Notes under the pieces: generated by a model
Seen by the model: the letters and a program-made list of their open reading frames with translations, nothing else
What the model was told of the DNA's origin: nothing
Database searches by the model: none
Part shown: positions 19,530-21,968 of the stretch, one piece after another
Layout: each line of letters begins with the position of its first letter
Numbering within the stretch: the stretch's first letter is position 1
Made by a program: the position numbers and the translations under genes
DNA from: Paenibacillus sp. FSL R5-0766
GTDB lineage: Bacteria; Bacillota; Bacilli; Paenibacillales; Paenibacillaceae
Length of the DNA stretch: 64,000 bases
Direction of reading: 5' to 3'
Assembly: GCF_037971845.1 (NCBI RefSeq)
Contig: NZ_CP150227.1
Coordinates: 2,418,001 to 2,482,000, forward strand

Positions 19530-19837
19530 AAGACGAGTCGTCACAACCCGATCTGCTCTCCAAAAAGGCGGTTGCCCTAAAATACGTCCCTGGAGAGAGC
19601 GAAGCACCTGTTGTTGTAGCCAAGGGCCGTGGCAAAGTGGCAGAAGCCATTCTGGATAAAGCCAGAGAAAACGGCGTGGCTGTTCAGGAGGATGCAGCAC
19701 TTGTGGAGGTGCTCTCCAAGTTGGATCTGGATGAACAGATTCCAGCTGAACTGTATCAACTGGTCGCAGAGGTGCTAACATATGTCTACCGTGCAGATCG
19801 AATGGCCTCAGGACGTGAGGAAGACGAGTCATGGTAG
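19526..19837 (+). CDS. FlhB C-terminal-domain-like protein (FhlB/FlhX type)
   Basis: The 103 residues align with the C-terminal cytoplasmic piece of FlhB. AVALKYVPGESEAP here matches AVALKYEGSEMEAP in the window's own FlhB, and IPAELYQLVAEVLTYVY matches IPADLFQAVAEVLAYVY. It begins just after where the NPTH self-cleavage site would be and lacks that site and all membrane helices. Such proteins (YlqH, FhlB) can stand in for the cleaved FlhB tail in some bacteria. It overlaps the FliK-like gene by ATGA and the next gene by seven bases, so the three are translationally linked. Confidence 0.88.
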   Translation: MKDESSQPDLLSKKAVALKYVPGESEAPVVVAKGRGKVAEAILDKARENGVAVQEDAALVEVLSKLDLDEQIPAELYQLVAEVLTYVYRADRMASGREEDESW

Positions 19838-20229
19838 AACATAGATCAGGCAAGGAGCCGGGACTGAAGCTTACACGACAGCAGAAGGGTCGATTAGGTG
19901 AAGAGGCTGCCTGTCAATGGTTGCGAGAGAACGATTATCGGATCATTAGACAGAACTGGCGTTGCCGTAGCGGTGAGATTGACATCATTGCTTCCTGCGA
20001 GGGCCTGATTGTCTTTGTGGAAGTAAGAAGCAGAAGTGGAGCCGCTCAGTACGGTACACCTCAGGAATCGGTTGATATGCGTAAAATGCAGCAGGTACGT
20101 TCAACCGCATCCGTATATTTGCAAATGACGGGAGAGACGGAACTTCAGATCCGTTTTGATGTAATTGCCGTAATGCTTGATCAAGCAGGAGAAATCGTCT
20201 CTTTGAATCATATTGTTAATGCTTTTTAA
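19831..20229 (+). CDS. UPF0102 (YraN) family nuclease-fold protein
   Basis: The 132-residue protein has the YraN layout: GRLGEEAACQWL near the start, then SGEIDIIA and VFVEVRSRSG, which hold the Asp and Glu positions of the PD-(D/E)XK nuclease fold. Most members have Lys after EV (EVK); here it is Arg, which could weaken catalysis. The biochemical role of the family is unproven. It overlaps the FhlB-like gene by seven bases, the usual position of yraN-like genes after rnhB in Bacillales. Confidence 0.9.
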   Translation: MVEHRSGKEPGLKLTRQQKGRLGEEAACQWLRENDYRIIRQNWRCRSGEIDIIASCEGLIVFVEVRSRSGAAQYGTPQESVDMRKMQQVRSTASVYLQMTGETELQIRFDVIAVMLDQAGEIVSLNHIVNAF

Positions 20230-20261: not shown

Positions 20262-20276
20262 GATACGAATTGTATC
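20262..20276. promoter_or_regulatory. GATAC palindrome, copy 1
   Basis: GATACGAATTGTATC is a near-perfect palindrome that matches the site at 20484-20498 at 13 of 15 bases. It lies 33 bases after yraN. A T run follows, so a weak terminator is an alternative reading. Confidence 0.4.
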
Positions 20277-20370
20277 TTTTTAATGTGAGTTGGTCAGTTA
20301 TTTCGAAGTACAAGTTTAATTATGTCTTATCTTTGCATTCGTTTTAGTTATAAAATTAGTTAATATACTA

Positions 20371-20411
20371 AAGCCGTAGTTCCTCTTTATACAGGAGCTG
20401 CGGCTTTTTTT
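20371..20411 (+). terminator. Terminator between yraN and the RiPP-like gene
   Basis: AAGCCGTAGTTCCT and AGGAGCTGCGGCTT form a 14-pair stem with two G.T pairs, followed by seven T. Confidence 0.9.
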
Positions 20412-20483: not shown

Positions 20484-20498
20484 GATACAAAATGTATC
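20484..20498. promoter_or_regulatory. GATAC palindrome, copy 2
   Basis: GATACAAAATGTATC lies 52 bases before the start of the RiPP-precursor-like gene, where a dimeric repressor could act. The form resembles MarR/OhrR-type operators, but the assignment is a guess. Confidence 0.45.
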
Positions 20499-20549: not shown

Positions 20550-20711
20550 ATGAAAGAGCTTCAGAATACTTCGAACAACACAGTAAAACAAGTATGGGAG
20601 TGCCCTCGGATGGAAGTGCTGGATATCAGCGAGACCATGAACGGTGGACAGGGGATTTGGCAATATGTTTGGGACGGAGAATTCTGGAAGCTTGAACTTA
20701 TGGTCAGTTAA
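20550..20711 (+). CDS. Small RiPP-precursor-like peptide (paeninodin/lasso-type leader)
   Basis: The peptide has 53 residues. Residues 16-34, WECPRMEVLDISETMNGG, match the leader pattern of paeninodin-family lasso peptide precursors (aromatic-x2-P-x-L-EVLDV-x2-TM-x-G). By that alignment cleavage after TM would release a 23-residue core rich in Trp that ends FWKLELMVS. The core has no Asp or Glu at positions 7-9, the usual ring-closing residue; the first acid is at 12. No lasso cyclase, protease or recognition protein is nearby, so it may be an orphan precursor, a relic, or served by enzymes elsewhere. ATG 20550 follows AGAGAGG; GTG 20541 is an alternative. Confidence 0.6.
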   Translation: MKELQNTSNNTVKQVWECPRMEVLDISETMNGGQGIWQYVWDGEFWKLELMVS

Positions 20712-20771
20712 TTTAAGAGGTTAAAGAGGAATGTTTGATCAATAAAATAAATGGTGAGGTGTAGTGAGAAG

Positions 20772-21968
20772 ATGCAGACAAGTATCAAATGGATCATTCG
20801 ACTAAGTACACTATCTTTATGTTTCATTTTGTTTGGAATCATGTATTCCGGAGTTTCTTATGCAGCCGATCCGTCTACACAGGCAAGTGTATCAGGTAAA
20901 GTTATTGATCGTCAGGGATTACCTGTCCAGAACGCTACTGTCAAGTATTGGCTTAATTATCGTGGGGATACGTCAGAGAAAAGTGTGAAGACGGATGGGA
21001 ATGGACGGTATCATATTATAGAGTCCGTTGAAGACAATACGGACATTACTTTTGTAGTTGATGCAGAGGGTTATGTGACGTACAGACACTATAGCTCCTA
21101 CGGATTGTCCGGTGGAGAGCAAATACAGCTTGATTTTCATATTTATGAGCCATCCACGATTGTAGGAACAGTCAAAGATCAGGCAGGCAGACCTGTTCCA
21201 GATGCTCGTATAAAAGTAACAAGTGTCTTTGATCGTATAGTGAAAACTGATCAGCAAGGTCGATATGCGGTTACAGGAATTGATTACGCCTATAATTCGA
21301 ACATTGCAATATGGGTAGATGCCGATGATTATATGTTATATGAACAGGATCGCTTGGGTGTCCGGGAGGGAGGAACCTTGAGAATGGATGTTGTTTTGGC
21401 AGAGGCGGCACACGTGCGGGGAAAAGTTGTAGATGAGTCGGGCAATCCAGTAAGTGGGGCTAAAGTTAATGCTGGAGGTTCGGCAACAACAGATGCTCAA
21501 GGCAACTATTTAATAAAGCGCGTACCAACAGGGGCCAGAACGATAACGGGAGAAGCAGCAGGATATTTAAAAACGAGCCTAAGCGTTACTCTTGTAAAAG
21601 GAGATCATAATACGTTTAATATCGTACTTAAGAAGGATGCAGATATTACACCTCCAGTAACCAAGTACAGATTAGTTCCTATTACAGATACTGTGAACGG
21701 GAAAATATACATCAAAGGATTTACATTCAGACTTCAGGCAACAGACGAAGTCAAAGGTTCGGGCGTAAAAACAACGCAATATCGAATCAATGGGGGAGAA
21801 TGGAAAAACTATGAAGGACCCGTCAAGTTTTATGCCCCAGATGTCAAGGTGGTAGAGTACTATAGTACAGATGTTGCAGGTAACCAGGAGAAGTACAACA
21901 AAATGGATTTTGTTAATGGCACATTTGAAGGGAATGGCGCGTTTGAAGGGGCGAGTTACGACGATTGA
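20772..21968 (+). CDS. Secreted protein with carboxypeptidase-regulatory-like repeats and OmpL47-type domain
   Basis: The 398-residue product begins with a signal peptide (hydrophobic TLSLCFILFGIMYSGVSYA, likely cut before ADPS). Three similar beta-sandwich repeats follow: VSGKVIDRQGLPVQNATVKY (about 38), VGTVKDQAGRPVPDARIKV (about 130) and VRGKVVDESGNPVSGAKVN (about 216), each with a DxxGxY motif (TDGNGRYHI, TDQQGRYAV, TDAQGNYLI). The C-terminus (DITPPVTKYRL to DVAGNQEKY) looks like an OmpL47-type domain. These are surface or adhesion-type modules without catalytic residues. ATG 20772 follows GAGGTG; it comes 60 bases after the small peptide gene and could be co-transcribed. Confidence 0.8.
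   Translation: MQTSIKWIIRLSTLSLCFILFGIMYSGVSYAADPSTQASVSGKVIDRQGLPVQNATVKYWLNYRGDTSEKSVKTDGNGRYHIIESVEDNTDITFVVDAEGYVTYRHYSSYGLSGGEQIQLDFHIYEPSTIVGTVKDQAGRPVPDARIKVTSVFDRIVKTDQQGRYAVTGIDYAYNSNIAIWVDADDYMLYEQDRLGVREGGTLRMDVVLAEAAHVRGKVVDESGNPVSGAKVNAGGSATTDAQGNYLIKRVPTGARTITGEAAGYLKTSLSVTLVKGDHNTFNIVLKKDADITPPVTKYRLVPITDTVNGKIYIKGFTFRLQATDEVKGSGVKTTQYRINGGEWKNYEGPVKFYAPDVKVVEYYSTDVAGNQEKYNKMDFVNGTFEGNGAFEGASYDD

Follow-up and report, generated by a model that had tools for sequence, protein, structure and literature searches.

A 53-residue open reading frame (ORF) of Paenibacillus sp. FSL R5-0766 is probably a functional second precursor of the paeninodin-type lasso peptide machinery, co-regulated with the lasso cluster, served by its enzymes in trans and giving a product that is probably linear. 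The ORF is conserved and under selection, its leader has the register of a lasso precursor, its operator sequence recurs at the lasso cluster, it is linked to a partner gene, and one relative was found together with a lasso cluster.

The window, that is, the whole 64-kb stretch of DNA that was analysed (G000:C1:2418001-2482000), lies within a one-contig genome of 7.0 Mb. The features of interest are the following.

19831-20229, plus strand: yraN, the upstream boundary gene; a GEIDI-bearing frame lies upstream in 31/31 orthologues
20262-20276, no strand: a further operator-like site, GATACGAATTGTATC, with one mismatch; it lies 3' of yraN and 5' of the terminator
20370-20407, plus strand: intrinsic terminator between yraN and the peptide operon (terminator scan, folding)
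20484-20498, no strand: operator-like palindrome GATACAAAATGTATC, 51 nt 5' of the start codon
20550-20711, plus strand: precursor peptide gene, 53 aa (ORF list and translation, NF033524 match, orthologues)
20550-20639, plus strand: leader of the precursor, residues 1-30
20640-20708, plus strand: core of the precursor, NGGQGIWQYVWDGEFWKLELMVS, the C-terminal end of the 53-aa ORF; stop codon 20709-20711
20751-21968, plus strand: partner gene, 405 aa; an alternative start is possible at 20772

The name yraN was adopted from an earlier note on this DNA, and we take the GEIDI motif to be the mark of this gene. The strong terminator that had been placed between yraN and the peptide gene was recovered (15 pairs, -24.1 kcal/mol, z -5.7). 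A sigma-70 scan showed no plus-strand promoter near the ORF.

A conserved, probable precursor with a paeninodin-type leader

The ATG start of the peptide is backed by a second clade, in which an in-frame stop lies one codon upstream. The earlier note had recognised a paeninodin-type leader, and the NCBIfam model NF033524 ('paeninodin family lasso peptide') indeed matched residues 13-34 with 30.1 bits (curated cut-off 27 bits), while a Pfam scan of the peptide gave no match. With T29-M30 taken as the leader end, the register is W16 = -15, P19 = -12, M21 = -10, E22 = -9, V23 = -8, L24 = -7 and T29 = -2. This is the register of the PbaA leader in the crystal structure of its complex with the RRE PbaB1 (PMC13381572). 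The RRE motif of NF033524 (W-15, P-12, L-10, T-2) is present throughout 25 distinct orthologous genes, with W, P and T invariant and L or M at -10.

The core has 23 residues and is rich in Trp. As had been predicted from this one sequence, it has no acid at positions 7-9, where NF033524 lasso peptides have their ring acid; D or E was found there in 0/31 orthologues, and these positions read W-Q/H-Y in the genus. Residue 1 is N in the window's peptide (N in 27/31 and S in 4/31 orthologues), which does not count among the small residues (G, A, S, C) looked for at this position; it should be noted that, counted in the same way, L stands there in 2/13 canonical controls. These 13 control precursors, hand-picked from the lasso regions read, have A at core 1 in 11 cases and D9 in all 13. 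With W-Q/H-Y at core 7-9 and Asn or Ser in first place, closure of the usual macrolactam seems impossible for the genus peptide, in agreement with the earlier note, and the Trp-rich product therefore probably stays linear. Outside the genus, residue 1 is H, A, D, N, E or G, and 4 of 18 distant members, including L152 and its near-twin L158, combine Ala at 1 with an acid at core 7 or 8. A ring is therefore possible for some of them, which makes linearity a less general rule within this class. The C-terminal Ser is present in 31/31 orthologues, in 18/18 relatives of the family and in three more in a second family, and T-2 is kept in 31/31 orthologues and in 21/21 relatives outside the genus.

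A search of the genus found the peptide in 31 of 75 genomes (own included), which are related genomes and not independent counts. All 31 copies adjoin yraN, and near-identical peptides occur in Paenibacillus amylolyticus (100%) and P. xylanexedens (98%). The earlier note had named beforehand, as the outcome that would speak against it, homologues that are mostly frameshifted or lack a common leader and start; what was found is a conserved leader and an intact start in 29/31 copies. In the other two, G057 (L034) and G033 (L028), the start region was lost, apparently via short deletions between operator and leader, so that the site lies 51 and 81 bp closer to the core than in relatives; core and operator are intact.

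Selection was quantified in the 25 distinct genes, a set without G033 and G057 (start lost), G037 (core one residue shorter) and three duplicates. The dN/dS values were 0.47 for residues 1-15, 0.22 for residues 16-30 and 0.07 for the core, which is the most constrained part of the peptide. Invariant positions in this set are K-18, W-15, P-12, V-8 and T-2 in the leader, and G2, G3, W7, Y9, V10, W11, G13, E14, F15, W16, L18, E19 and S23 in the core.

The genus profile also gave distant matches in other genera (394 genomes searched). Ten of them were taken into a wider profile of 13 members, which those ten match by construction. Counting a locus when the match reaches profile position 49 or beyond, the wider profile found, among the matches listed, at least 18 loci in other genera, spread over 16 genomes of the family; eight of these loci are new. 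A second family in the order (392 genomes, overlapping the 394) contributed three further loci, which brings the loci in other genera to at least 21. At E 0.01, which is an E threshold and not the bit cut-off, NF033524 matches every one of the 13 sequences in the wide alignment. The remaining matches of the wider profile cover mainly the leader, and those read at lasso clusters are ordinary precursors.

Remote lasso enzymes and a constant neighbour

The earlier note had seen no maturation enzyme near the ORF, and this holds for the entire 64-kb window, in which no homologue of AsnB, HprK, B1, B2, NTase or ABC was found. The genome-wide check that it proposed for PqqD-like, transglutaminase-like and asparagine-synthetase-like genes led to a full paeninodin-type cluster at C1:2,038-2,047 kb, 397 kb from the ORF. 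This cluster encodes a sulfotransferase, the AsnB cyclase, a precursor, an HprK-like kinase (below the Pfam cut-off), PqqD/B1, Transglut_core3/B2, NTP_transf_5 and an ABC transporter (named by eye). Its canonical lasso core (L003:7550-7687; G000:C1:2041.55 kb) is highly conserved in the genus, which is unusual for an antibiotic, and the pattern AG-G-[YW]..IDW...DADLY/M...S was seen in most regions in which a precursor was read. Four genomes (G003, G033, G067, G068) carry tandem precursor pairs.

A second lasso-like set (L004:7470-14082; G000:C1:942-949 kb) comprises B1, B2, an AsnB-like gene and two ABC transporters, the latter three named by eye; no precursor was recognised and no kinase was seen in it. 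The genome has only two PqqD matches, both in clusters with B2. Service by the L004 cluster was rejected, because 24/31 carriers hold a single B2 match. B2 itself is present in 72/75 genomes of the genus (31/31 carriers and 41/44 non-carriers), so that its co-occurrence with the peptide is uninformative: the three genomes without B2 also lack the peptide, and 41 keep B2 without it. In other genera of the family, B2 was found in 9/9 of those tested among the 16 carrier genomes.

The B1 of the canonical cluster aligned without gaps to PbaB1 (PDB 9x90; E 3.5e-24). Twelve contact residues, those named in PMC13381572, were checked by hand on this alignment. Nine are identical (Y39, L41, I48, L65, Y69, Q79, F83, L87, L92) and three are changed (V71 to I, I44 to T, E75 to V); of the two polar contacts to W-15, Q79 alone is kept. 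According to the same paper, paeninodin-type RREs prefer WxxP over YxxP. Since the canonical B1 fits, the separate lasso-like recognition protein considered in the earlier note is not needed.

Another 35 peptide loci were scanned (14 genus records, 18 from the family and 3 from the second family, with 16/31 genus carriers outside the scan), and 34 of them have no AsnB, HprK, B1, B2 or NTase homologue; at L158 the scan covered a contig of just 4 kb. Co-encoding with B1, B2 and C, as NF033524 describes it, is absent in the window and was seen at L152 (G184) alone. The gene order there is AsnB, precursor, HprK, B1, B2, NTase, ABC, OmpL47 protein and peptide, all on one strand, and one gene, whose OmpL47 product carries S-layer-like repeats (by eye), separates the lasso cluster from the peptide.

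The most constant neighbour outside the genus is the partner gene, which the earlier note did not mention. In the window it starts 39 nt 3' of the peptide gene. Its product begins with a hydrophobic segment that resembles a signal sequence (by eye), contains CarboxypepD_reg in three stretches and has an OmpL47-type domain at the C-terminus. An OmpL47-domain profile built from three seeds, two of which (L064, L067) are tested loci and match by construction, detected a same-strand partner beside the peptide in 18/18 family loci and 3/3 second-family loci. The same profile found none in 74 control regions (71 lasso regions plus L003, L004 and L118). The N-terminal parts of the partners vary and consist of CarboxypepD_reg, T6SS_HCP-like or S-layer-like repeats. 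Within the genus, 28/31 copies have a single long partner frame; G033, G037 and G040 are the copies in which this frame is interrupted or split.

At ten loci (L064, L067, L069, L070, L071, L153-L156, L159) T6SS_HCP-like secreted-looking proteins flank the peptide on both sides, with a PF05638 match at L064 and L067 and an assignment by eye at the remaining ones. In Paenibacillaceae, no type VI system was evident by eye near these flanking genes.

A palindromic site at peptide and lasso loci

A palindrome just upstream of the peptide gene had been pointed out in the earlier note; it is the proximal site of the feature list, although an inverted-repeat search at default settings missed it. In the window alone, four sites with at most two mismatches were counted against a shuffle mean of 2.2, and 19/100 shuffles reached four. 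As this count is not above chance, the case for the site was built on the genome and its relatives. Genome-wide, GATACANNNTGTATC has six perfect sites in 7.0 Mb, and with at most one mismatch 33 sites were found, compared to 7 for the reversed pattern. One perfect site lies 5' of the peptide ORF. Another is part of the lasso promoter (assigned by eye), where it is flanked by TTGACA and TAGAGT, and 31 bp further on there is a copy with one mismatch. The other four are at L073, L074, L077 and L078 (G000:C1:539.5, 1496.5, 2988.6 and 6674.2 kb). The genes near them, named by eye, are in this order an acetyltransferase-like gene together with a PAS-domain-like one, a gene for an ABC transporter, one for a 443-aa protein that looks secreted, and a pair of sugar epimerase-like and cupin-like genes; they are possible further members of the regulon.

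The proximal site was found in 31/31 orthologues, perfect in 27 and with one mismatch in 4, and a second site (at most two mismatches) in 25/31. When counted with controls, the site accompanied 30/31 peptide genes compared to 0 for 40 permuted half-sites; the count is 30 because one shortened copy has its site outside the stretch used. Lasso regions from 60 of the 72 genomes with B2 were analysed in the same way. The site (at most one mismatch) is present in 59/60, perfect in 55, whereas each of the 40 permuted half-sites was seen in 1.3 regions on average and in 15 at most. In 58/60 regions it lies 5' of the AsnB frame; G014 is the region without the site, and in G024 AsnB was not found in the stretch.

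In other genera, 8/10, 5/8 and 3/3 peptide loci (16/21) have a site with no more than one mismatch at the head of the operon, often before the partner gene and not before the peptide. It was not found at 5/21 loci, including L152 and L158, the latter a 4-kb contig. Of 12 lasso regions from other genera, seven have the site before the AsnB frame or at its start, and in five it is missing there; in the lasso region of L169 it is present, not upstream.

A pair of sites, each with one mismatch, was also observed before an exopolysaccharide operon (L118:5219-19312; G000:C1:1475-1489 kb; genes named by eye), beside a divergent HTH_3/XRE-type gene (C1:1475.2-1475.6 kb). This gene is a candidate regulator of the lasso and peptide loci. 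With its protein as query, XRE homologues were located in viral contigs, and the palindrome lies within 600 bp of such a homologue in 47 of the 120 stretches listed, which are partly redundant, compared to 10.3 expected from random places. We infer that the regulator of these sites may be the XRE protein of the exopolysaccharide locus. Bacillus prophages carry Xre-type repressor operators, as in the case of PBSX Xre. The identical palindrome beside XRE homologues in viral contigs resembles this arrangement, but the sites described here belong to the host chromosome, where they accompany lasso, peptide and exopolysaccharide genes.

Proposed processing, alternative explanations and implications

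The remote enzymes, the shared control site and the surface-protein neighbour suggest that the lasso enzymes treat the peptide at a distance. A regulator binding GATACANNNTGTATC, probably an XRE-type repressor, would switch the peptide and lasso loci together. The discrete RRE B1 would then bind the leader (WxxP, T-2), and B2 would cleave the precursor after Thr-Met; PMC10368454 describes Thr -2 as a critical recognition residue for leader removal from lasso precursors. For the HprK-like kinase, the C-terminal Ser, which is invariant, would be a possible target. Indeed, PadeK phosphorylates the C-terminal Ser of a linear precursor, and PadeK-related kinases accept precursors of low identity that share this Ser (both PMC9266682). 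The mature product would leave the cell via the ABC exporter of the lasso cluster and function on the surface together with the OmpL47-domain protein that its own operon provides for secretion; as this neighbour looks secreted, the peptide must be exported to meet it. Judged from the sequence, the simplest product is probably a linear aromatic peptide, perhaps phosphorylated. The mass calculated for the linear core is 2741.295, with [M+2H]2+ at 1371.655; the doubly charged values become 1411.638 if one phosphate is added and 1362.649 if water is lost.

Three readings had been offered in the earlier note: a new RiPP class, service in trans and a decayed remnant. Service in trans is the best supported, based on the complete cluster in the own genome, the shared operator, the RRE register, the C-terminal Ser and the arrangement at L152. 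The remnant, here of a lasso cluster, has the absence of enzymes nearby and the missing start in 2/31 copies on its side, but it is scarcely credible and was rejected by the selection analysis (core dN/dS 0.07); 29/31 starts are intact, and operator and partner are conserved across genera. It is also unlikely that a true lasso or another macrolactam is made in trans by the same cyclase, with residue 1 closing onto the acid of [DE]-F-W at core 13-14. Such an acid exists: G-E-F-W places it at core 14 in 30/31 orthologues and at 13 in G037, 14/18 relatives outside the genus have an acid at core 11-13, and the lone B2, and so the lone lasso set seen, is the canonical one in 24/31 carriers. However, the genus has N or S as residue 1 and the other genera a mixture, unlike the Ala that prevails in the canonical controls with their constant D9, and L152 and L158 have G-G-F-W with no acid in that motif. 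To our knowledge, rings of 12-14 residues are not among the known lasso rings.

We consider it quite unlikely that the peptide is no substrate but a binding partner, whose leader would hold B1 and tune or titrate the lasso pathway while the core serves as a docking segment. The leader register and the co-regulation would fit this idea, but every copy keeps T-2, which PMC10368454 reports as a recognition residue for leader removal, the Ser at the C-terminus never varies, selection is stricter on the core than on the leader, and the neighbour that is always present looks like a secreted protein. It is very unlikely that the ORF encodes an unrelated small protein that belongs to the partner operon, such as one that regulates the secreted protein or acts as its chaperone, and that its likeness to paeninodin is convergent. 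Such a protein would explain why the constant neighbour is the partner gene (21/21) and not the enzymes. Yet all 13 members of the wide alignment match NF033524, the leader positions, the T-2 spacing and the lasso-cluster operator would all need convergence, and L152 sits behind a lasso cluster.

A second precursor served in trans can be compared with several known systems. With the paeninodin-type (HprK-containing) lasso peptides of Bacillota it shares the WxxPx[L/M]EVL...T-x leader register, the C-terminal Ser, the operator (in the genus) and the presence of the enzymes in the genome. In contrast to them, its core has no ring acid at 7-9 and, in the genus, no Ala/Gly at 1, it carries W-x-[FY]...[DE]F[WY], and it is encoded away from the cluster, next to the gene of a secreted protein. 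Linear polyphosphorylated peptides (LPP; PMC13381572, 2026) also have a lasso-like leader motif and no macrolactam, and often occur in genomes that also hold lasso clusters; their phosphorylation was demonstrated, whereas that of our peptide is proposed. LPP have a YxxPxVLxHQxIxFET leader, an own RRE, an SpI-type peptidase (LppS) and a kinase in the cluster, to which an NTase and a transporter also belong, and variable C-termini; unlike them, the peptide has the WxxP form, its core is conserved, and no enzymes are dedicated to it. The LPP motif YxxPxVLxHQxIxFETxxS does not occur in its leader, which reads WECPRMEVLDISETM, no RRE, kinase or NTase homologue lies near the ORF, and the PqqD matches of the genome are the two B1s. 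Membership in the LPP was rejected, as leader form and enzyme content differ. In the case of prochlorosins, one lanthipeptide synthetase serves many scattered precursors with hypervariable cores. Precursors away from the enzyme and treatment in trans via leader recognition (here proposed) are common to both systems, but the chemistry is another one, and the core of our peptide is its most conserved part.

Genome mining commonly seeks lasso precursors beside their enzymes and with a ring acid. The peptides described here slip past both filters, and it is the leader alone that matches a lasso family. In titles and abstract openings of the best-ranked papers, a scope that leaves aside preprints and most subscription journals, we found neither a description of such an orphan class nor an account of the GATACANNNTGTATC operator. 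If the peptide is served in trans, the product range of lasso clusters would be larger than counted, and their protease and kinase would act on ring-less substrates.

One 15-bp site is found at the lasso cluster, at the operon of peptide and surface protein and, with one mismatch, at the exopolysaccharide operon, and this shared site is a first hint at the purpose of the very conserved lasso pathways of Bacillota. Tentatively, we propose a new dispersed class of RiPPs, a possibility we put forward without favouring it: the lasso enzymes of Paenibacillaceae and the neighbouring family may also make a Trp-rich peptide, linear and with a phosphate at its C-terminus, whose operon lies far away and which would be held at the surface by a dedicated secreted OmpL47 protein (in one genome with S-layer-like repeats), with one XRE-type operator throughout, the exopolysaccharide operon included. 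If this holds true, the conserved role of these 'antibiotic' pathways would lie at the cell's own surface or matrix.
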